A stretch of 64,000 bases of DNA, taken from contig JAHDWP010000006.1 in NCBI GenBank assembly GCA_023382715.1, positions 1 through 64,000 on the forward strand, in the 5' to 3' direction. The notes beneath the pieces are model-generated. The model did no database searches, was not told where the DNA came from, and saw nothing but the letters and a program-made list of their open reading frames with translations. Below, one piece after another: positions 13,713-48,489 of this stretch. This DNA is from Anaerolineae bacterium. GTDB taxonomy: Bacteria > Chloroflexota > Anaerolineae > Aggregatilineales > Aggregatilineaceae. How positions within the stretch are numbered: the stretch's first letter is position 1; every line of letters begins with the position of its first letter. The translations under genes were made by a program, and so were the position numbers.

Positions 13713-16619
13713 TCATTGCTCCAGGTTAAATTGCACGCGCTCGCTCGCCGTCAGATCGCGGACGCGGCAGCAGGCGTTGGCATAAGCGACCAGATCGGCG
13801 GTCGTCTGCCAGGCCATCCAGATGCGCGCGCTGCGATCGCTGCTGGCGGTGACGCTGTGCGTCCCGTCCGGCGACCAGGCGACGCCGCGCAGACCGTCGC
13901 CATGCCCGCCCAGCACCAGCAGCTCGTTGCCGGTTGTCGCGTCCCACAGGCGCGCCGTGCGATCCTCGCTGGCGGTGAGGATGCGCGATCCATCCGGCGA
14001 CCAGGCCCCCGCGGTGACGGCATCGGTGTGCCCGGCCAGCGTCACCCGCAGCGCGCCCGTCGCCGCGTCCCAGACTTTCGCTGTGCCGTCCTCGCCGACG
14101 GTCAGCAGGGCCGCCCCGTCCGGCGAAGAGAAGACGCCCGTCACCGCGCCGTCGTGCGCCGCCAGCACCATGATCTCGCCGCCCGTCGCCGCATCCCACA
14201 GGCGCACGGTGCCGTCGCGCGCGGCGGTGATCAGGCGTGCCCCGTCCGCTGCCCAGGCCGCGAACTCGACTGTGCCGGTGTGCCCGCTCAGCAACAGCAC
14301 CTCTTCCGGCACGGCGCCGCTGATGTTCCACAGGCGGGCCGAGCGGCGCGCAGCGATGAGCAGATGCGTCTCGTCCGGCGACCAGGCGGCGCTGGTGATG
14401 TCGGTGACCAGGTCGGTCACGGCCAACACCTGCGCCCCGCTCGCCGCATCCCAGACGCGCGCCTGGCTGTCGCTCGCCCAGGTGAGCACGCGCGTCCCGC
14501 TGGCGTTCCAGCGCGCGCCGTTAACCCGCCCCTGGTGCGTCAGGGTGAACAGGAGCGCGCCGCTCTGCGCGTCCCACAGGCGCGCGGTGTTGTCCCACGA
14601 CCAGGTGAGCAGGCGCGTCTCGTCAGGACTCCACGCCGCGCCGCTGACCCAGCCGCTGTGCCCGCTCAGCGTCAGCAGGAGCGCGCCGCTCTGTGCGTCC
14701 CACAGGCGCGCCGTGCCGTCGCGCGACCAGGTGAGGACGCGCGCTCCGTTCGCGCTCCACGCCGCGCCGTTGACCCAGTCCCCATGAGGCAGTGTGTGCA
14801 GCGCCGCGCCGGGCGAGGCATCCCACAGGCGGGCAGTTGCGTCAGCGGCGGCGGTGAGCAGGCGCGCACCGTCCGGCGCCCAGGCGACATCGTTCACATC
14901 GTCGGCGTGCCCGCTGACAGCATACAGGCGCTCGCCGCTGGCGGCGTCCCACACGTAGACCGCGCGGTCGCGCCCGGCGGTGGCCACCCGCGTTCCGTCC
15001 GGCGACCAGGCCACCGCCATCACCGCGCTGATGTGCCCGGTCAGCACAGCGATCGGCGCGCCCGCCGTCGGATCCCAGACGATGGCTGTCTCATCGTTGC
15101 TCGCGCTGGCCAGGCGCGTCCCATCCGGCGACCAGGCCACGCGGTTGATGGCGTCGCTGTGCCCTTCCAGCACGGCCAGCGCCTCGCCGCTGGCGGCATC
15201 CCACAGGCGCACGGCTCCGTCGTGGCTCCCGCTGGCGATCTGCGTCCCGTCCGGCGACCAGGCGATGCCATTGACCCAGGCCGTGTGCCCGCTCAGGATG
15301 CGCAGCAGCGCGCCGCTGGCCGCGTCCCATACGCGCACGGAGTTGTCGGCGCTGGCGGTGGCGATCTGCGCCCCATCCGGCGACCAGGCGACGTCAATCA
15401 CCCAGTCGGTGTGCCCCACCAGCACGAGCAGCGGGTTGCCGGTCGCGGCGTCCCAGACGCGGGCCGTGCGATCCCAACTGCCTGTGGCGAGGCGCGCCCC
15501 GTCCGGCGACCAGGCGACGCTGGAGACGGACCCCGTGTGCCCGACCAGCCGCCTGATGGGCTGCGGACTGCTCGCCGCTTCCCACAGGGCGACGCTGTTA
15601 TCGGCGCTGGCGGTGGCGATCTGCGCCCCGTCCGGCGACCAGGCCGCGCGCAGCACCGCCCCGTTGTGCGCCGTCAGGATGCGCCGCGCCCGGCTGGCCT
15701 GCACCGCCGTGCCCAGCGCGCGGTCGGCCTGCCACACATACGGCAGCCGGTTCAGCGCTTCGAGGGCCAGCAGCACGCCGCGCTCTGGAAAGGCCCCGAA
15801 CAGCTCAAGCTGAGCCTGCGCGGCCAGGCCGATGGCCTGCGACCTGTTGCGCGCTTCCTCGGCGGACAGGCGAGCCTGAACGGCTGCCTCAGCGTTGGCG
15901 CTGGCCTGCTGGCGGGCGTCCTCGGCGCGCACGAACAGGATCAGCGAGAGCACCAGCAGGGCGACGATCACGCTGACCACGGCGGTGATGATGGCGTTGC
16001 GCTGCTGGCGGCGCTTGTGGACGTGGCGGCTGCGCGCGATGTACTCGATGTGCAGGGGGGTGGGTTTGTTGCGCTCTTTGGCCAGGCCCTGGGTCAGCCA
16101 CGCCTCGGCTTCCTTCAGGTCGTTGCCGCCCAGCAGCAGGCTGCGATCGTGCTGGCGATCTTCCCAGTTGCGGGCGCGCACCAGCAGACGGGTGTGCTCG
16201 CGCGTGTAGGCCAGGTCGGTGTCCAGCGCGTCGAGCAGTGCGCCAAAAGCCGTGTCGAAGTCGTCTTCATCGCGGATGAAGATCCAGTTATGGGCGTTGA
16301 CTGTGGGATGCAGCCGCTTCTCGTCGGCCTCGTCGGTGATCTCGCGGCGCAGCACCGGCATGATGCGCTTGTGGTGCTCGGTGGCGTAGTCAATTTCCTT
16401 GAAGCAGGTCACCGAGCGCGCCGAATCCGGGCTGATGGCGAAGACGAAGGCGTTGGCCCCTTCGATGCCGCTGCAAATCTCGCGCCACCAGTCCGCCGAG
16501 AGGGGGATGTCTTCCCAGTCCACCCAGGCGTCGCGTCCGTGCGCAGCCAACGCCTGGTGCAGCCGGCGCACGAACGCCCTATCCTCGCGTGCGTAGGAAA
16601 TGAACACGTCGCCCGGCAT
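13713..16619 (-). CDS. TIR domain - membrane segment - WD40 repeat protein
   Basis: A 968-residue protein. Residues 3-135 are a TIR domain (DVFISYAREDRAFVRRLHQAL, here DVFISYAREDRAF; WVDWEDIPL; FVFAISPDSARS). CFKE at 72-75 matches the position of the catalytic Glu of TIR NADases. A linker (RNWEDRQHDRSLLLGGNDL, AEAWL) leads to one membrane helix at 209-230, a coiled-coil-like helix, then about 15 WD40 units from residue 315 to 945, enough for two propellers. No NTPase (NACHT/STAND) domain is present. ATG 16619 has AAGGAGG upstream; earlier codons are intergenic. Membership of the TIR-WD40 conflict and signalling class is known; an antiviral role here is inference. Confidence 0.88.
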   Translation of the reverse strand: MPGDVFISYAREDRAFVRRLHQALAAHGRDAWVDWEDIPLSADWWREICSGIEGANAFVFAISPDSARSVTCFKEIDYATEHHKRIMPVLRREITDEADEKRLHPTVNAHNWIFIRDEDDFDTAFGALLDALDTDLAYTREHTRLLVRARNWEDRQHDRSLLLGGNDLKEAEAWLTQGLAKERNKPTPLHIEYIARSRHVHKRRQQRNAIITAVVSVIVALLVLSLILFVRAEDARQQASANAEAAVQARLSAEEARNRSQAIGLAAQAQLELFGAFPERGVLLALEALNRLPYVWQADRALGTAVQASRARRILTAHNGAVLRAAWSPDGAQIATASADNSVALWEAASSPQPIRRLVGHTGSVSSVAWSPDGARLATGSWDRTARVWDAATGNPLLVLVGHTDWVIDVAWSPDGAQIATASADNSVRVWDAASGALLRILSGHTAWVNGIAWSPDGTQIASGSHDGAVRLWDAASGEALAVLEGHSDAINRVAWSPDGTRLASASNDETAIVWDPTAGAPIAVLTGHISAVMAVAWSPDGTRVATAGRDRAVYVWDAASGERLYAVSGHADDVNDVAWAPDGARLLTAAADATARLWDASPGAALHTLPHGDWVNGAAWSANGARVLTWSRDGTARLWDAQSGALLLTLSGHSGWVSGAAWSPDETRLLTWSWDNTARLWDAQSGALLFTLTHQGRVNGARWNASGTRVLTWASDSQARVWDAASGAQVLAVTDLVTDITSAAWSPDETHLLIAARRSARLWNISGAVPEEVLLLSGHTGTVEFAAWAADGARLITAARDGTVRLWDAATGGEIMVLAAHDGAVTGVFSSPDGAALLTVGEDGTAKVWDAATGALRVTLAGHTDAVTAGAWSPDGSRILTASEDRTARLWDATTGNELLVLGGHGDGLRGVAWSPDGTHSVTASSDRSARIWMAWQTTADLVAYANACCRVRDLTASERVQFNLEQ

Positions 16620-16794
16620 GGCCGCCTCCTTCCCTGCGCCGCTCGCAAGCGGGCGGCGGGGTGTGCGCCGCATCACGGCGTACCCTATATTTTGCCCGCT
16701 GCGGGCACCTGGCTGCAAATATGCGCCAAGAGGCACAAGGGGCACAAGGGGCATAGGCAGCAAGAGGCCCTTTGAGAAGTCGGGCGCCTGTCTT

Positions 16795-16852
16795 TGCCCC
16801 CCATCCCCGACCCTTCCCCCACGCGGGGGGCAGGGAGAAGATGCCGCGCCCG
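16795..16852. repeat. C-rich intergenic repeat
   Basis: CCCCCCATCCCCGACCC faces CGGGGGGCAGGGAGAAG. It belongs to the same family as the blocks at 8868 and 20173. A TATAAT at 16873-16878, just beyond it, is a candidate -10 box for the gene at 16949, with no convincing -35. Confidence 0.55.
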
Positions 16853-16948
16853 GAGTTCCCGCGCAGAGCGTGTATAATAGGCGCAGAAAGTCTTCTGAGC
16901 TTAGGGTAAGCGCATGCTGATCGCGCTCTCGCACACAGTTGAGGCTTC

Positions 16949-22925: not shown

Positions 22926-23999
22926 ATGAAACGAAACATTCATCTTCATTGGCTGGGGCTGGCCCTGGTTGCTGCCACGCTGTGGCTGGCGCTGGCCCTC
23001 CCCGCCCAGGTCGGCGCGCATGGCCCCGCCGATGGCGGCGCGTCGCGCTCCGACATCAACGACCTGTTCTCTGTCATTTTCTGGATCTCTGTCCCCATCT
23101 TTCTGCTGGTCGAAGGGCTGATCCTCTTCGCGATCGTCCGCTATCGGCGGCGACACCGCCACGAAATGCCGGATCAGGTGGAGGGCAACCACACCCTGGA
23201 AGTCACCTGGACGGTGCTCTCGTTCGTCATCATCGGTGTGGTCTTCGCCCTGACCACCCGCTTCATGATGACTCGCTACGAGGCGGAAGCCAACAACGGC
23301 AGCACCACGCCCGACCTGACCGTCCACGTCACCGGCTACATGTTCAACTGGGATTACGAGTATTTCCTGGGCGCGGGCGAGGAAACCGGCATCAAAACAA
23401 CGCGCAAGCTGACCGTCCCGGCCAACCGCAACGTGCTGCTGGAGATCACCTCGACCGACGTCCAGCACAGCTTCTGGCTGCCTTCGCTGGCCGGCAAGAT
23501 AGACGCTGTCCCCGGCTACACCAACACCATGTGGCTGAACATCAAAGAGCCGGGGCAGTACACCGGCAACTGCGCTGAATACTGCGGCACGCTGCATTAC
23601 GACATGCTGATCGAGGTCGAGGCGCTCGAACCCGCCACCTTCGACACCTGGCTGGCCGGGCGCATGACTTCTACTGAGCAGTTCGTATCCATCGGCACCG
23701 ATCTGGACACGCCGCTGCCCCAGGGCGACGCGGCGCGCGGCGCGCAGGTCTTCAGCGAGCTGGGCTGCGCCGGCTGTCACGGGGCCGCGCCGGGCGCCGG
23801 GCCTGCCCTGGCGCAGATAGCCAGCGATGCGACCAGCCACGCAGGAGCTTCGGCAGAAGCCTTCCTCCGCGAGTCAATCTTGCTGCCGTGCGCCGAGCAG
23901 GCGTCCGGCTACAACTGCCAGATCATGCCGTCCAACTACGGTGAGAAGCTGGATGCACAGGGCCTGGCCGATATCATCGCTTACCTGCTAGCCAACTAG
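22926..23999 (+). CDS. coxB: cytochrome c oxidase subunit II with fused cytochrome c (caa3 type)
   Basis: A 357-residue subunit that takes electrons to the oxidase. A signal peptide and two membrane helices (VIFWISVPIFLLVEGLILFA; VLSFVIIGVVFALTTRF) precede the cupredoxin domain. The CuA site is CAEYCGTLHYDM, together with the upstream His in STDVQHSFW. The C-terminal ~100 residues form a cytochrome c domain with heme motif CAGCH and probable Met ligand in CQIMPSNYG. This fusion defines caa3 oxidases. It is the first gene of the operon, followed by coxA after 39 bases. Confidence 0.95.
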   Translation: MKRNIHLHWLGLALVAATLWLALALPAQVGAHGPADGGASRSDINDLFSVIFWISVPIFLLVEGLILFAIVRYRRRHRHEMPDQVEGNHTLEVTWTVLSFVIIGVVFALTTRFMMTRYEAEANNGSTTPDLTVHVTGYMFNWDYEYFLGAGEETGIKTTRKLTVPANRNVLLEITSTDVQHSFWLPSLAGKIDAVPGYTNTMWLNIKEPGQYTGNCAEYCGTLHYDMLIEVEALEPATFDTWLAGRMTSTEQFVSIGTDLDTPLPQGDAARGAQVFSELGCAGCHGAAPGAGPALAQIASDATSHAGASAEAFLRESILLPCAEQASGYNCQIMPSNYGEKLDAQGLADIIAYLLAN

Positions 24000-24038
24000 C
24001 GGCGACCTGGTGCACGGGACGAGTAGGAGTTAGCACAC

Positions 24039-25679
24039 ATGGCGACCATCGCAAGCGTACATCCCACAGGCTATCAGCCGCGCGGGCTGATGGCCTGGCT
24101 GACCACAGTTGATCACAAGAAGATCGGCATCATGTACGTCCTGACCACGTTCACCTTCTTCGTGATCGGGGTCATTCTGGCGCAGGTCATCCGCGCCGAG
24201 CTGACGGTGCCCGGCGGGCAGTTTGTCTCCGCCGAGGAGTACAGCCAGCTCTTCTCCATTCACGGCTCGACGATGATCTTCCTCTTCGTCATCCCCATGC
24301 TGGCCGGGCTGGGCAACTACTTCGTGCCGCTGATGATCGGCGCGCGCGACATGGCCTTCCCGCGCCTCAATGCGCTGAGCTTCTGGCTGCTGTTCTTCGG
24401 CGGGCTGACCATGTACGGCGGCTTTCTGGCTCCGGGTGGGGCGGCGTCCAACGGCTGGACATCCTACGTCCCGCTGGCGGGCAGGGACTACTCGCCGGGG
24501 CGCGGCACCGACCTGTGGCTGATGGCGGTGGCTCTGGTGGGCACCTCGTCGCTCATCGGCGGTTTCAACTTTATCGTGACCATCCTCAAGCTGCGCGCGC
24601 CGGGCATGACGCTGATGAAGATGCCGCTCTTCGTCTGGACGGTGCTGGTCATGGCCTTCATGATCGTGGCTGCCACGCCCGTGCTGACGGTGAACGGCCT
24701 GCTGCTGCTGCTCGACCGCAACCTGGGCACGCAGTTCTTCAACCCGGCGGCGGGCGGTGATGCCGTTTTGTGGCAGCAGTTGTTCTGGTTCTACTCGCAC
24801 CCGGCGGTGTACATCATCGTCCTGCCAGCGATGGGCGTCATCTCCGAGGTGATCCCCGTCTTCTCGCGCAAGCCGATCTTCGGTTATACGGCCATGGTCA
24901 TTTCGACGATGCTGATCGGCTTCCAGGGTTTCTGGACGTGGGCGCACCATATGTATACCGTCGGCCTGCCGCCGAAGATCGAGGTCTTCTTCGTGCTGAT
25001 GACCATGATCATCGCTGTGCCGACCGGGGTGAAGATGTTCAACTGGGTTTTCACCATGATTGGCGGCTCGCTGCGCTTCGACACGCCCATGCTCTACAGC
25101 ATTGGCTTCCTCACCACCTTTCTGATCGGCGGTATCACCGGCGTCATGCAGGCCGTGCTGCCCATTGACGAGGTGGTGGCCGACTCGATGTGGCTGGTCG
25201 CCCACCTGCACTACACGGTCTTTGGCGGGGGCGGCTTCGGCATCTTCGCCGGGCTGTACTACTGGTGGCCGAAGATGTTTGGCTACAAGCTGGACGAGCG
25301 GCTGGGCAAGATTCAGTTCTGGACGCTCTACATCGGCTTCCACATCACCTACTTCCCGCTGCACATCCTGGGCCTGATGGGTATGCCGCGCCGTGTCTAC
25401 GACTACCCGGAGGAGCGCGGCTGGGCGGCGCTCAACCATCTCTCGACCGTCGGCGGGGTGATCATGGGTATCTCGGTGGCCATCCTGGTCTACAACATGA
25501 TTCGCAGCGCCCGTCATCACCAGCCGGCGGGCAACGATCCCTGGGAGGGCGACACGCTGGAGTGGACGACGACATCGCCCCCGCCGGAATACAACTTCGA
25601 GCAGACGCCGGTGGTGCACAGCCGTCGCCCGGCGCGTGACCTGCGCCTGGGCCTGACCGCGAAGGGGGAAGAAGCATGA
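24039..25679 (+). CDS. coxA: cytochrome c oxidase subunit I, A2-type
   Basis: A 546-residue, 12-helix heme-copper oxidase core. Heme and CuB ligands are visible: His in [33 protein letters not shown] and [14 protein letters not shown]. The K-channel Lys is in [10 protein letters not shown]. In place of the GHPEV glutamate of A1-type oxidases it has YSHPAV, the Tyr-Ser motif described for A2-type enzymes such as Rhodothermus caa3. The protein reduces O2 to water and pumps protons. Its stop codon overlaps the coxC start by 4 bases. Confidence 0.96.
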
Positions 25680-43397: not shown

Positions 43398-43784
43398 ATG
43401 TCCCGTGAAGTGATCGCCACCCCCCGCGCGCCTGCCGCAGTAGGGGCCTATTCGCAGGCCATCACCGCCAACGGCTTCGTCTTCGTCTCCGGGCAGCTTG
43501 GCCTGGTGCCGGAGACCAAGCAGCTTGCCGGCAGCACCGTCGCCGCGCAGACGGAGCAGGCGCTGCTGAACATGGCCGCCATTCTCCAGGCAGCAGGCAC
43601 GGACATGGCCCAGGTAGTCAAGGTCACGGTATACCTGGCCGACATCGCCGCCTTCAAGGAGATGAACGACGTGTACAGCGCGTTCTTCCCCACGCAGCCG
43701 CCGGCGCGCGCCGCTTTTGCCGTGCGCGACCTGCCGCTGGGCGCGCTGGTCGAGATCGAAGCCGTCGCCGTCCTGCCCGCCTGA
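43398..43784 (+). CDS. ridA: RidA family protein, copy 1
   Basis: A 128-residue Rid/YER057c protein. Marks are PRAPAAVGAYSQAI, FVSGQLGLVPET, QTEQALLNMAAILQAAGTDM, VVKVTVYLADI and the active-site Arg in PPARAAFAVRDLPLGALVEI, then EAVAVLPA. Rid proteins deaminate reactive enamine/imine intermediates from pyridoxal enzymes. ATG 43398 follows GAGAGGAG. The second copy starts 23 bases after it. Confidence 0.93.
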   Translation: MSREVIATPRAPAAVGAYSQAITANGFVFVSGQLGLVPETKQLAGSTVAAQTEQALLNMAAILQAAGTDMAQVVKVTVYLADIAAFKEMNDVYSAFFPTQPPARAAFAVRDLPLGALVEIEAVAVLPA

Positions 43785-43806
43785 TGAAGAGAGAGAGCTG
43801 AGTCTC

Positions 43807-44193
43807 ATGCCGCGCGAAGTGATCCGCACCGACAAAGCGCCCGCCGCCATCGGCCCCTACTCGCAGGCGATCCGGACGGGCGACACTGTGTATGTGGCCG
43901 GCCAGGGCGGGCTGGTGCCGGAGACGATGCAGATCATCGGGCCGACCGTCGCCGAGCAGACCGCTCAGGTGCTGCGCAACATCGCCGCCATCCTGGAGGC
44001 GGCGGGCACCGACCTGGCCCACGTGGTCAAAGTCAACGTGCTGTTGACCGACATCAGCGCTTTTGCCGAGATGAACGAGGTCTACCGCACGTTCTTCCCG
44101 GCAGACCCGCCGGCGCGCATGACCTATGCTGTGCGCGCCCTGCCGGTGGGCGTGCGGGTTGAGATTGACGCCATCGCCGTCCTGCCGGACTGA
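43807..44193 (+). CDS. RidA family protein, copy 2
   Basis: A 128-residue paralogue of the preceding gene, with the same length and motif order: APAAIGPYSQAI, VAGQGGLVPETMQI, QTAQVLRNIAAILEAAGTDL, VVKVNVLLTDISAFAEMNEV, and the Arg-containing PPARMTYAVRALPVGVRVEI. ATG 43807 has GAGAGAG upstream; the longer frame to 43717 is rejected since it runs into copy 1. A tandem duplication is the simplest explanation. Confidence 0.92.
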   Translation: MPREVIRTDKAPAAIGPYSQAIRTGDTVYVAGQGGLVPETMQIIGPTVAEQTAQVLRNIAAILEAAGTDLAHVVKVNVLLTDISAFAEMNEVYRTFFPADPPARMTYAVRALPVGVRVEIDAIAVLPD

Positions 44194-45401: not shown

Positions 45402-45583
45402 ATGGACACTGTAACACAGCTTTACGCTGTATAGGGGCGATTGTTCTGGTGCATAGGCAGGGCGAGGGCTACGAAATGGAGATATTCACCGTGAGCGGGA
45501 CCTATGGCGCGATCGCTGCCGTTCCGGCCAGGCTCGCCCCTGTGGGACAGCTTGAGATCGCCCATGCCTACCCTGTGAAGTGA
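45402..45583 (+). pseudogene. remnant of a DUF4926-like gene
   Basis: ATG 45402, behind AGGAG, opens MDTVTQLYAV and stops at 45432-45434. In another frame the following bases read GAIVLVHRQGEGYEMEIFTV (from 45434), then SGTYGAIAAVPARLAPVGQL and EIAHAYPVK to TGA 45581-45583. This second part matches the C-terminal half of DUF4926 proteins as I remember them (usual pattern G-x-I-V-x-V-Y...YEVEF...VAVVT), and MDTV fits their N-terminus. About ten residues of the middle are missing and a frameshift separates the two pieces. The gene is judged broken. Confidence 0.55.
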
Positions 45584-45591
45584 GGCGACCC

Positions 45592-46275
45592 ATGCCCCAC
45601 GATCTGATCCTGCTGGTGGACGACGAGCCGCACATCATTGAGCTGGCCAGCCTGTATCTCAAGCAGGACGGCTTCCGGGTGATCAGCGCCGGCGACGGCC
45701 TGGCCGCCCTGGAGCGCATCGCCCAGGACAGCCCGGCGCTGATGGTGCTCGACCTGATGCTGCCCCGGCTGGATGGCTGGGAAGTCTGCAAGCGCGTCCG
45801 CGCCGAGTCCGATCTGCCGATCCTCATGCTCACCGCCCGTGATGACGACATTGACAAGATCGTGGGCCTGGAGCTGGGCGCGGACGACTACCTGACCAAG
45901 CCATTCAACCCGCGCGAGCTGGTCGCGCGCATCAAGGCGATTCTGCGCCGGGCCGAGCCGCGCCACCCCCGCGAAGGAGAAGCGCCCTTGCGCGCCGGCA
46001 ACCTGGCAGTTGATCCGGCGCGGCGCGAGGTGCGCGTGGCCGGGCGGCTGGTGGACCTGCGCGCCAAGGAGTTCGACCTGCTGCTGGCCCTGCTCGAAAA
46101 CCGGGGCCTGGTGCTCAGCCGCGAGAAGCTGCTTGATCTGGTGTGGGGCTTCGACTTCTACGGGCAGACGCGCACGGTGGACGTGCATATCGCCCACCTG
46201 CGGGCCAAGCTGGCTGGCAGCACCGCCGAGATCGAGACGGTGTGGGGCGTCGGCTACAAGCTCAGCGCGGGCTAA
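45592..46275 (+). CDS. OmpR/PhoB-family response regulator
   Basis: A 227-residue regulator. The receiver domain (residues 3-118) keeps acidic pocket VDDEPH, phospho-acceptor Asp in LMVLDLMLPRLDG, Thr in LTARDDD and Lys in DDYLTKPF. The C-terminal DNA-binding domain spans about 135-227, with AKEFDLLLALLENRGLVLSR, LLDLVWGFDF, RTVDVHIAHLRAKL and VWGVGYKL. No histidine kinase gene is next to it. ATG 45592 has GAGG upstream. It lies just before the formate dehydrogenase gene, with a terminator between. Confidence 0.94.
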   Translation: MPHDLILLVDDEPHIIELASLYLKQDGFRVISAGDGLAALERIAQDSPALMVLDLMLPRLDGWEVCKRVRAESDLPILMLTARDDDIDKIVGLELGADDYLTKPFNPRELVARIKAILRRAEPRHPREGEAPLRAGNLAVDPARREVRVAGRLVDLRAKEFDLLLALLENRGLVLSREKLLDLVWGFDFYGQTRTVDVHIAHLRAKLAGSTAEIETVWGVGYKLSAG

Positions 46276-46345: not shown

Positions 46346-46410
46346 TGCTACTATGAGGGTGCGCGAGCCTGCTCCGCCTCTCGCTCGTCTTCAGCTCACA
46401 GGTGAAGCTC

Positions 46411-48489
46411 ATGATCCAATCCGACCGCATCGTGCGCACCGTCTGCCCGTACTGCGGCGTGGGGTGCAAGATTGACCTGCATGTCAAGGATCGCCGCGTC
46501 TACCGTGTCACCGCGCCCTTCGCCGCGCCGCCCAACTTCGGCAAGCTGTGCGTCAAGGGGCGCTTCGGCCACGACTTCCTGTGGCACCCCGACCGCCTGA
46601 CCACGCCGCTGATCCGCCGCGAGGGGACGCTGCAACCGGCCCCCTGGGACGAGGCGCTCGATCTGGTCGCCGCGCGGCTGAGCGCGATCAAGGCCGAGAG
46701 CGGTCCGGATGCCATCGCCCTGCTGTGCAGCGCCAAATGCACCAACGAAGAGAACTACCTGATGCAAAAGCTGGCGCGGCAGGTGATCGGCACGCACAAC
46801 ATAGACCACTGCGCCCGCCTTTGACACAGCAGCACCGTGACAGGCCTCGTGCAGGCCTTCGGCAGCGGCGCGATGACCAACTCCATCGCCGATATTCCCC
46901 AGGCGCGGGCTATCCTCGCCATTGGCACCAACACGACCGAGCAGCACCCGGTCCTCAGCCTGCAAATCAAGAAGGCGGTGCGGCAGCACGGCGCGCAGCT
47001 CATCGTCGCCGATCCGCGCCGCATCGAATTGGCCGACTTCGCGACGCTGTACCTGCGCGTCCGTCCGGGGACGAATCCCGCCCTGCTCAACGGGCTGGCT
47101 CACGTCATCCTGGCCGAGAACCTGCACGATCAGGCGTTCATTGAGGCGCGCACCGAGAACTTCGACGCCTGGCGCGCGATCGTGGATAAGTATCCGCCGG
47201 AGCGCGTCAGCCGGATCACCGGCGTGCCCGCCGACGACATCATCCGCGCGGCGCGCCTCTACGCTGAGAACAAGCCCGCCGCCATCTTCTACGCGATGGG
47301 CATCACCCAGCACGTGGACGGTCACCAGAACGTGCTGACTGTGGCCAACCTGGCCCTGCTCACCGGCAACCCGGGTGTGCCCGGCGGCGGCGTCAACCCG
47401 CTGCGCGGGCAGAACAACGTACAGGGATCGTGCGACGTGGGCGGCCTGCCCAACGTCTACCCCGGCTACCAGCGCGTCAATGACGAGGCCGTGCGCGCGA
47501 AATTCGCCGCTTTTCACGGCGTGGAACAGCCGCCCCCGCGTCCCGGCCTGACGCTGAGCGAGATGCTGCCCGCTGCCAAACGCGGCGACGTGCGCGCCAT
47601 GCTGATCATGGGCGAGAACCCGGTCATGAGCGACCCGAACTCGGCCCATGTCCGCGAATGCCTGGCCGCGCTGAGCTTCCTGGTCGTGCAGGATATTTTT
47701 CTCAACGAGACGGCTGAGTACGCCGACGTGGTGCTGCCCGCCGCCGCCTACGCTGAGAAGGACGGCACCTTCACCAACACTGAGCGCCGCGTCCAGCGCG
47801 TGCGCCAGGCGTTCGCCCCGCCCGGCGACGCCCGCCCGGACTGGCAGATCACCCGCGACCTGGCCCGGCGCATGGGCGCGCCCGGCTGGGACTACGCCGA
47901 TCCCGCCAGCATCCTGGCCGAGATCGCCGCGCTGACCCCGATCTACGGCGGCATCACCTTCGACCGGCTGGACGGCGACGGTTTGCAGTGGCCGTGTCCC
48001 GACGCCGCGCATCCCGGCACGCCGATCCTGCACACGATGGCGTTCCCGCGCGGGCGCGGGCTGTTCAGCCCCGTGCAGCACCAGCCGCCGCCCGAACTGC
48101 CCGATGACGAATATCCCTTCATCCTGACGACCGGGCGCGTGCTCCAGCACTGGCACACGCGGACGATGACCGGGCGCGTGGGCGGGCTGGAGTTCCTGGC
48201 CCCCGATGAGCGCGTCGAGGTGCACACGCAGGACGCGGCGCGACTGGGCATTGCCGATGGGGACTGGATTCGCGTTACGTCGCGGCGCGGCTCGGTGACG
48301 GCGCGGGCGCGCGTGTTCAACCGGCCTCAGCGGGGCGTCATCTTCATGACTTTCCACTACGCGGAGGCCCTGGCCAACGAGCTGACGCTGAATGTCTTCG
48401 ACCCCGTCTCCAAGATTCCGGAGCTTAAGGTGTGCGCCGTGCGCGTGGAGCGAGTCCCCGCGCCGGAAGGGGTGAGCCTGGAGTCCTGA
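46411..48489 (+). CDS. fdhF: formate dehydrogenase alpha subunit, selenocysteine-containing (UGA at 46822)
   Basis: A 692-residue molybdenum/tungsten enzyme that oxidises formate to CO2 if read through one TGA. Cys12, Cys15, Cys19 and Cys47 (CPYCGVGC...LCVKG) bind a 4Fe-4S cluster. TGA 46822-46824 stands at codon 138, exactly where the family has Sec or Cys: NIDHCARL-TGA-HSSTVTGLV, with the conserved His next. Downstream motifs continue unbroken, including GAMTNSIADI, GTNTTEQHPVL, NPGVPGGGVNPLRGQNNVQG and the C-terminal cofactor-binding domain. Two separate frames (stop at 46824; restart at 46837) would each lack the active site. ATG 46411 follows AGGTGA. No fdhE, fdhD or electron-transfer partner is adjacent. 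Confidence 0.9.
46825..46870 (+). promoter_or_regulatory. candidate bacterial SECIS element
   Basis: Directly after the UGA, AGGCCT (46842-46847) can pair with AGGCCT (46853-46858) around CGTGC. Flanking CCG and CGG extend the stem. Distance (17 bases from UGA to the inner stem) and shape resemble the fdhF SECIS of E. coli, which recruits SelB. Confidence 0.55.

Follow-up and report, generated by a model that had tools for sequence, protein, structure and literature searches.

The gene fdhA in the window (the whole 64,000-nucleotide stretch of DNA that was analysed) is best explained, taking all lines of evidence together, as encoding an FdhF-type formate dehydrogenase catalytic subunit with selenocysteine (Sec) at residue 138, a reading to which we assign a probability of about 0.94. 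The in-frame TGA that splits the gene in a plain ORF view almost certainly encodes Sec, as happens in numerous bacteria, and the two halves can now be read correctly as one Sec-encoding gene. The occurrence of this Sec-type formate dehydrogenase (FDH) is real and mostly ordinary; the interesting part is the hairpin downstream of the Sec codon. The features of the locus are as follows.

46400..46405, + strand: AGGTGA, a putative ribosome-binding site read in the sequence, 5 nt upstream of the ATG at 46411
46411..48489, + strand: fdhA, predicted formate dehydrogenase catalytic subunit, from translation; 692 aa, with Sec as residue 138
46819..46877, + strand: match to Rfam SECIS_3 (RF01989), 25.3 bits, E 0.013, whole model matched, below the gathering score of 63
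46822..46824, + strand: Sec codon TGA, codon 138 of fdhA, aligned with Sec140 of E. coli FdhF, the same codon being TGA in relatives
46842..46858, + strand: probable SECIS hairpin, AGGCCT (46842-46847), loop CGTGC (46848-46852), AGGCCT (46853-46858)
48487-48489, + strand: TGA, terminal stop of fdhA, from translation

An earlier sequence-only reading had claimed that the catalytic subunit is split by a single TGA at codon 138, in the context NIDHCARL-U-HSSTV, with homology continuing on both sides in the same frame, and each of these points was borne out. The frame 46411-48489 (+) contains TGA 46822-46824 as its sole internal stop and is otherwise open to the terminal TGA. The translated protein belongs to TIGR01591 (formate dehydrogenase alpha subunit), with 874.9 bits against a cut-off of 666.25 over residues 10-679, and contains the Pfam domains PF04879, PF00384 and PF01568. 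FDH chains in the PDB align from about residue 5 to about residue 685, the best relatives being the FdhF/FdhA chains of 7qv7 (FdhF, hydrogen-dependent CO2 reductase) and 9t1s (F420-linked formate dehydrogenase), in which the residue aligned to U138 is written X. Alignment with E. coli FdhF gave 313 identities over 683 aligned residues and placed U138 opposite Sec140, with C12, C15, C19, C47, K49, U138, H139 and R332 all matching. We take C12, C15, C19 and C47 to be the 4Fe-4S cysteines, and Sec, H139 and R332 to be the FDH active site; in this alignment the protein thus carries the Sec, the cluster cysteines and the active-site His and Arg of a formate dehydrogenase alpha subunit. The product is probably cytoplasmic.

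The same comparisons bear on whether the protein may be a molybdopterin selenoenzyme with a specificity other than formate. The NasC and NapA models also match, at lower scores than TIGR01591, and no electron-transfer subunit was found among the scanned neighbours of fdhA, which is preceded by a response regulator with a Trans_reg_C domain (45580-46275) and followed by a polysaccharide flippase; the scanned neighbours of the L048 homologue, with transport genes upstream and an FHA-domain gene downstream, likewise include none. Against this stand the TIGR01591 score above its cut-off, the scores of the other families, each below its own cut-off (among the matches listed, 25 of 28), and the conserved FDH active-site Sec, His and Arg, and we regard a different substrate as improbable. 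The genome has five molybdopterin oxidoreductase matches, with an internal stop in the window gene only. A second FdhA, on contig C1, has TGC at the Sec position and adjoins FdhD, a 2Fe-2S/4Fe-4S protein and a NuoEF-like protein; that the selenoenzyme might share these neighbours is a guess.

Elsewhere in the window, cytochrome c oxidase is represented at 22926-25679 (+) by subunit II, which carries a cytochrome c domain, and by subunit I; a capacity for aerobic respiration coexists here with a selenocysteine FDH. A tandem pair of Rid-family (TIGR00004) genes lies at 43398-44193 (+), and a 1073-aa protein with WD40 repeats (12 stretches) and a putative, by-eye TIR-like N-terminus is encoded at 13716-16934 (-).

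Comparison of codon 138 with Sec- and Cys-type homologues, a check proposed in the sequence-only reading, gave a consistent picture. In eight further genomes of the order, FdhA is likewise split by TGA at this codon and shares 69-77% identity with the window protein; therefore, the TGA is not a sequencing error. Over all fetched loci, tblastn gave 114 hits, with some genomes counted twice; 74 of them have TGA at the homologous codon and 39 a Cys codon, and the single remaining hit, with TTT, is a spurious antisense alignment. The machinery for Sec insertion, on which the sequence-only reading had made its case depend, was sought in the genome (3.88 Mb in 82 contigs, 98.6% complete), and all of selA, selB, selC and selD were found above their cut-offs, the gene content of the bacterial Sec-decoding trait. 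The refuting condition named in that reading, a genome lacking selB and selC, does not apply here.

C18:62214-62308: tRNA-Sec (selC), 68.5 bits; called tRNA-SeC with anticodon tca by ARAGORN
C18:62479-64317: selB, 347.3 bits
C18:64333-65652: selA, 542.2 bits
C4:82168-83103, - strand: selD, 369.9 bits; one in-frame TGA, at CAG-U-ASK (CAGUASK)

The genes for tRNA-Sec, SelB and SelA adjoin one another on contig C18. A true stop, arising from a pseudogene, a nonsense mutation or an assembly error, would account for the split frame in a plain ORF view; set against it are the recurrence of the same TGA in eight other assemblies of the order and in the 74 hits overall, the otherwise intact frame and the complete Sec machinery. 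Given the conserved TGA and this machinery, it is very improbable that the TGA is a stop or marks a pseudogene or a sequencing error, and the Sec assignment, with a TGA opposite Sec and Cys of homologues and a conserved hairpin behind it, stands.

One statement of the sequence-only reading failed, namely that selenoproteins are uncommon in this kind of genome. At E 1e-60, 110 of the 154 genomes examined in the order (70 of the 90 good-quality ones) yielded a SelB match and 113 of the 154 a SelD match; 96 of the 113 SelD matches, counted from rows, contain one TGA, and three of the 17 without it miss the N-terminus. Sec-FdhA was found in only 18 of the 154 (E 1e-100), comprising nine genomes with a short form, eight with a long form and G148 with three genes, so the Sec trait is common in the order, and Sec decoding seems not to be maintained for FdhA only. 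A SelB match is present in 16 of these 18 genomes; the other two, G008 and G014, have an AGGCCT-type Sec-FdhA and no SelB match at E 1e-60, their assemblies being 75% and 92% complete. The FdhA matches of genus g46 are free of internal stops, yet this genus retains SelB and a mostly TGA-containing SelD. Sec-type FDHs of Chloroflexota have already been published, as stated in excerpts of PMC4959059, PMC4918011 and PMC5736913; of these, the excerpts on Okinawa Trough single cells (PMC4959059) and on Dehalogenimonas alkenigignens (PMC4918011) report a Sec-FDH together with Sec-specific factors, and an excerpt of PMC1794560 gives the phylum three selenoproteins.

The sequence-only reading had also pointed to a SECIS-like AGGCCT hairpin at the right distance from the TGA. 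The hairpin is present and conserved, with its loop 23 nt from the TGA, but it is displaced and not of the usual fdhF type. It consists of a 6-bp stem and a 5-nt loop, with a folding energy of -8.1 kcal/mol for the 17-nt hairpin alone; numbering the T of TGA as 1, the two AGGCCT arms occupy nt 21-26 and 32-37 and the loop CGTGC nt 27-31, the stem starting after 17 nt. The bSECIS model in the Fig. 2 legend of PMC13188914 specifies a loop of 3-9 nt, an upper stem of 4-16 bp, a G in the first two loop positions, a UGA-to-loop distance of 16-37 nt and a minimum free energy of at most -7.5, and the hairpin lies within every one of these limits, with a 5-nt loop (CGUGC) that has G in second place, a 6-bp stem, a distance of 23 nt and an energy of -8.1 kcal/mol. 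This model is permissive, given that dropping the energy rule and asking for a stem of at least 6 bp with an early loop G lets 877 of 4475 background codons through.

Folding, which had been suggested as a check, gave a mixed outcome, with the hairpin inside the bSECIS limits, the Rfam score below threshold and the energy no better than that of shuffled sequences. At the gathering level of Rfam (63 for RF01989), no SECIS is called at fdhA. The folding energy of the hairpin region is not exceptional, and we rejected it as evidence for a SECIS (z 0.30 against shuffles and z 0.02 against synonymous recodings). When the fdhA peptide was recoded synonymously 20000 times, 3531 of the versions likewise formed a 6-bp hairpin with a GT pentaloop. 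Across homologues, the energy z-scores of 68 Sec rows and 38 Cys rows differ in favour of the Sec rows (means -0.36 vs 0.21, Mann-Whitney p 0.0003, the rows being related; L072, whose region contains an N, and duplicates over the 60 nt were set aside), and the window's own gene adds nothing to this difference.

What speaks for the hairpin is its conservation. Across nine genes, the window's own and those of eight relatives, codons +6 to +12 counted from the Sec codon show no variation at the third base, and these seven hairpin codons form the only run of at least three invariant third bases in 688 codon columns, 46 of which are invariant at the third base (Met and Trp columns left out). All six stem pairs are unchanged in 17 of 17 distinct AGGCCT-type genes, and in the same shifted register the 63 other Sec rows form 1 to 5 of the six pairs and the 40 Cys rows 2 to 5. 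No stem pair varies, so there is no covariation to examine, though the sequence constraint is strong. Within the genes of the window, just 8 of 4475 other codons have a fully paired 6-bp stem and a GT pentaloop behind them at an allowed distance. The pattern AGGCCTNGTNNAGGCCT occurs in 16 of 154 whole genomes, once in each, and all 16 occurrences lie just after the Sec codon of an FdhA, while its reversed control pattern occurs four times in the 154 genomes. The exact TGACAY..AGGCCT pattern was found in one of 400 genomes of the phylum, which is the genome studied here; only two of these 400 come from the order, and variants would escape this pattern. The loop of the G151 relative is CGGGC, without the U, an exception to the GU loop. 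This exceptional Sec-FdhA, at locus L049 (281-4636), is followed directly, on the same strand, by a Cys-FdhA (752-aa frame).

The usual element was compared over 81 Sec rows. In all 63 Sec-FdhA rows without the AGGCCT hairpin, GGTCT occupies nt 22-26 on a stem formed by nt 16-21 and 27-32, with six pairs in 55 rows and five in 8, and this stem varies with compensation (pair 18-30, for example, is GC, CG, AT or TA). The 18 AGGCCT rows, representing 17 distinct genes, have GGCCT at nt 22-26 and form 1-4 of the six canonical pairs, and hence do not carry an fdhF-type SECIS. Among the 40 Cys rows, GGTCT was found in 7 and six canonical pairs in 1. The usual GGTCT loop sits five bases nearer the TGA than the AGGCCT-type loop, and the peptide shifts with the RNA: each of the 18 AGGCCT rows encodes GLVQA, GLVKA or GLGQA, which none of the 63 GGTCT rows does. 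The 18 AGGCCT rows include L049_1, a copy of L022_1 that was left out of the 17-gene count and of the 120-row tree described below; the 40 Cys rows include L022_2 and L049_2, two copies of one gene; and the row set omits L033, L048, L050 and L051 (second copies of the same genes) as well as frames shorter than 380 aa.

It could be argued that Sec is inserted in response to a different signal, either the segment in the canonical register (nt 16-32, whose loop reads GGCCU where GGUCU is usual) or some other structure, given the permissiveness of SECIS models (the 877 background codons above), the null energy tests and the lack of covariation in the AGGCCT stem. Such a signal has only a small chance of being the true one, considering that the canonical stem reaches 1-4 of six pairs in the 18 AGGCCT rows where the shifted stem is complete in 18 of 18, that the invariant third-base run coincides with the shifted hairpin, and that the fdhA loop is identical to that of the hairpin in the genome's selD. 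The AGGCCT-CGTGC-AGGCCT hairpin is thus very probably the SECIS of fdhA, as indicated by its conservation.

The AGGCCT type was seen solely in this order, in two FdhA lineages separated in the tree. The short lineage is the clade of the window gene and adjoins Chloroflexota FdhAs with GGTCT, and the long lineage (G014, G034, G012, G010, G068, G153, G008 and G013) adjoins actinobacterial FdhAs; in G014 the N-terminus of the long FdhA is NuoG-like, and a NuoF-like gene is its neighbour. Trees were built from 120 rows, and from 63 rows with a mixture model, with 22 residues around Sec masked (6 before and 15 after). Both require two changes of SECIS type among the Sec rows, or three if Cys rows are counted. 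Constraining the AGGCCT type to one clade (17 AGGCCT rows and Cys row L141, a group named after the first tree was seen) cost 42 log units with an AU p of 0.0445. A single origin is therefore disfavoured by the trees, with a borderline AU test, and separate origins in the two lineages are suggested, not decisively, by these sequences. Tentatively, and at slightly less than even odds in our estimate, the two lineages may have independently swapped the GGUCU hairpin for AGGCCU-CGUGM-AGGCCU (17 nt, lying 5 nt further from the UGA), which then stayed the same at synonymous sites, giving a lineage-specific SECIS dialect that arose through convergence under a common SelB or through transfer between paralogues of a segment carrying the SECIS. 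No genome among the 154 has both a short and a long AGGCCT gene, as expected with nine and eight of 154. In the window's genus, L141 (G017:C73) is a long FdhA that has TGC for TGA and lacks the AGGCCT hairpin; its branch is nested within those of AGGCCT-type genes.

G148, of the same order, has three canonical Sec-FDHs, which are perhaps acquired or mis-binned. Its SelB was compared with those of 13 AGGCCT-type genomes, of which the fragment G035 was left out of the column count to give 12. The G148 SelB differs at nine of the columns on which 11 or all of the 12 are in agreement. Three of the nine are C-terminal (columns 523, 530 and 634 of 650), and of these three only the change at column 523, where G148 has E and 11 of the 12 have Q, is common to G147, a congener without an FdhA match at E 1e-100. 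No clear SelB signature of the AGGCCT type thus emerged from 12 genomes against one canonical genome.

By analogy with the known bacterial Sec system, SelD would make selenophosphate and SelA would convert Ser-tRNA-Sec to Sec-tRNA-Sec. SelB would then bring Sec-tRNA-Sec to the ribosome, docked on the AGGCCU-CGUGC-AGGCCU hairpin 17 nt after the UGA, and this docking would allow the UGA of fdhA to be decoded as Sec instead of stop. In the predicted enzyme, the selenolate of Sec138 would serve as a ligand to Mo or W in a bis-MGD cofactor, and the enzyme would be activated by the FdhD encoded elsewhere in the genome, and formate and CO2 would be interconverted, with electrons passing via the 4Fe-4S cluster to a partner absent from the scanned neighbours of fdhA.

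Among the papers listed on bacterial SECIS and SelB and on Chloroflexota selenoproteins and formate dehydrogenases, no title or abstract opening describes the displaced AGGCCT hairpin. Searches keyed to GGUCU would overlook AGGCCT-type genes. A displaced, invariant hairpin in two FDH lineages, its loop echoed in selD, offers a natural experiment on SelB recognition, in which stem sequence, loop GU and distance from the UGA are contrasted as possible cues.

Compared with known systems, the predicted protein resembles E. coli FdhF (PDB 1aa6) in having Sec at the aligned position followed by His, and in retaining Arg, Lys and all four cysteines of the cluster. At the RNA level the two differ, given that E. 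coli fdhF has GGTCT at nt 22-26, whereas fdhA here has GGCCT at these positions within the stem and the loop CGTGC at nt 27-31. Other Chloroflexota Sec-FdhAs (L052-L065 and others) are of the Sec type like the window gene but have the GGTCT hairpin in the fetched homologues. The long Sec-FdhAs of the order (L130-L137) are 53-55% identical to the window protein and lie elsewhere in the FdhA tree, and have an identical AGGCCT stem with the loop CGTGC or CGTGA. The genome's own selD (L015, C4:82168-83103, - strand) carries the hairpin GGCGCA-CGTGC-TGCGCC, which differs from that of fdhA in its stem and in its TGA-to-loop distance (32 nt vs 23 nt) and shares the pentaloop CGTGC; 3007 of 20000 synonymous recodings of selD form a comparable hairpin. 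SelD was sampled at 41 of its 113 matches, made up of the 30 top-scoring loci, 10 selected genomes and the genome itself; 39 of the 41 matched the motif, and L189 and L197, with no TGA and the motif unmatched, were left out. A six-pair stem is present in 33 of 34 Sec-SelD rows of the order, and all 34 have GU as the second and third loop bases, as against six pairs in none of five Cys-SelD rows and GU kept in four of the five. From comparison of the selD and fdhA hairpins, the common denominator thus appears to be a 6-bp stem with an nGUnn pentaloop, placed at three distances, with G151 as the exception.
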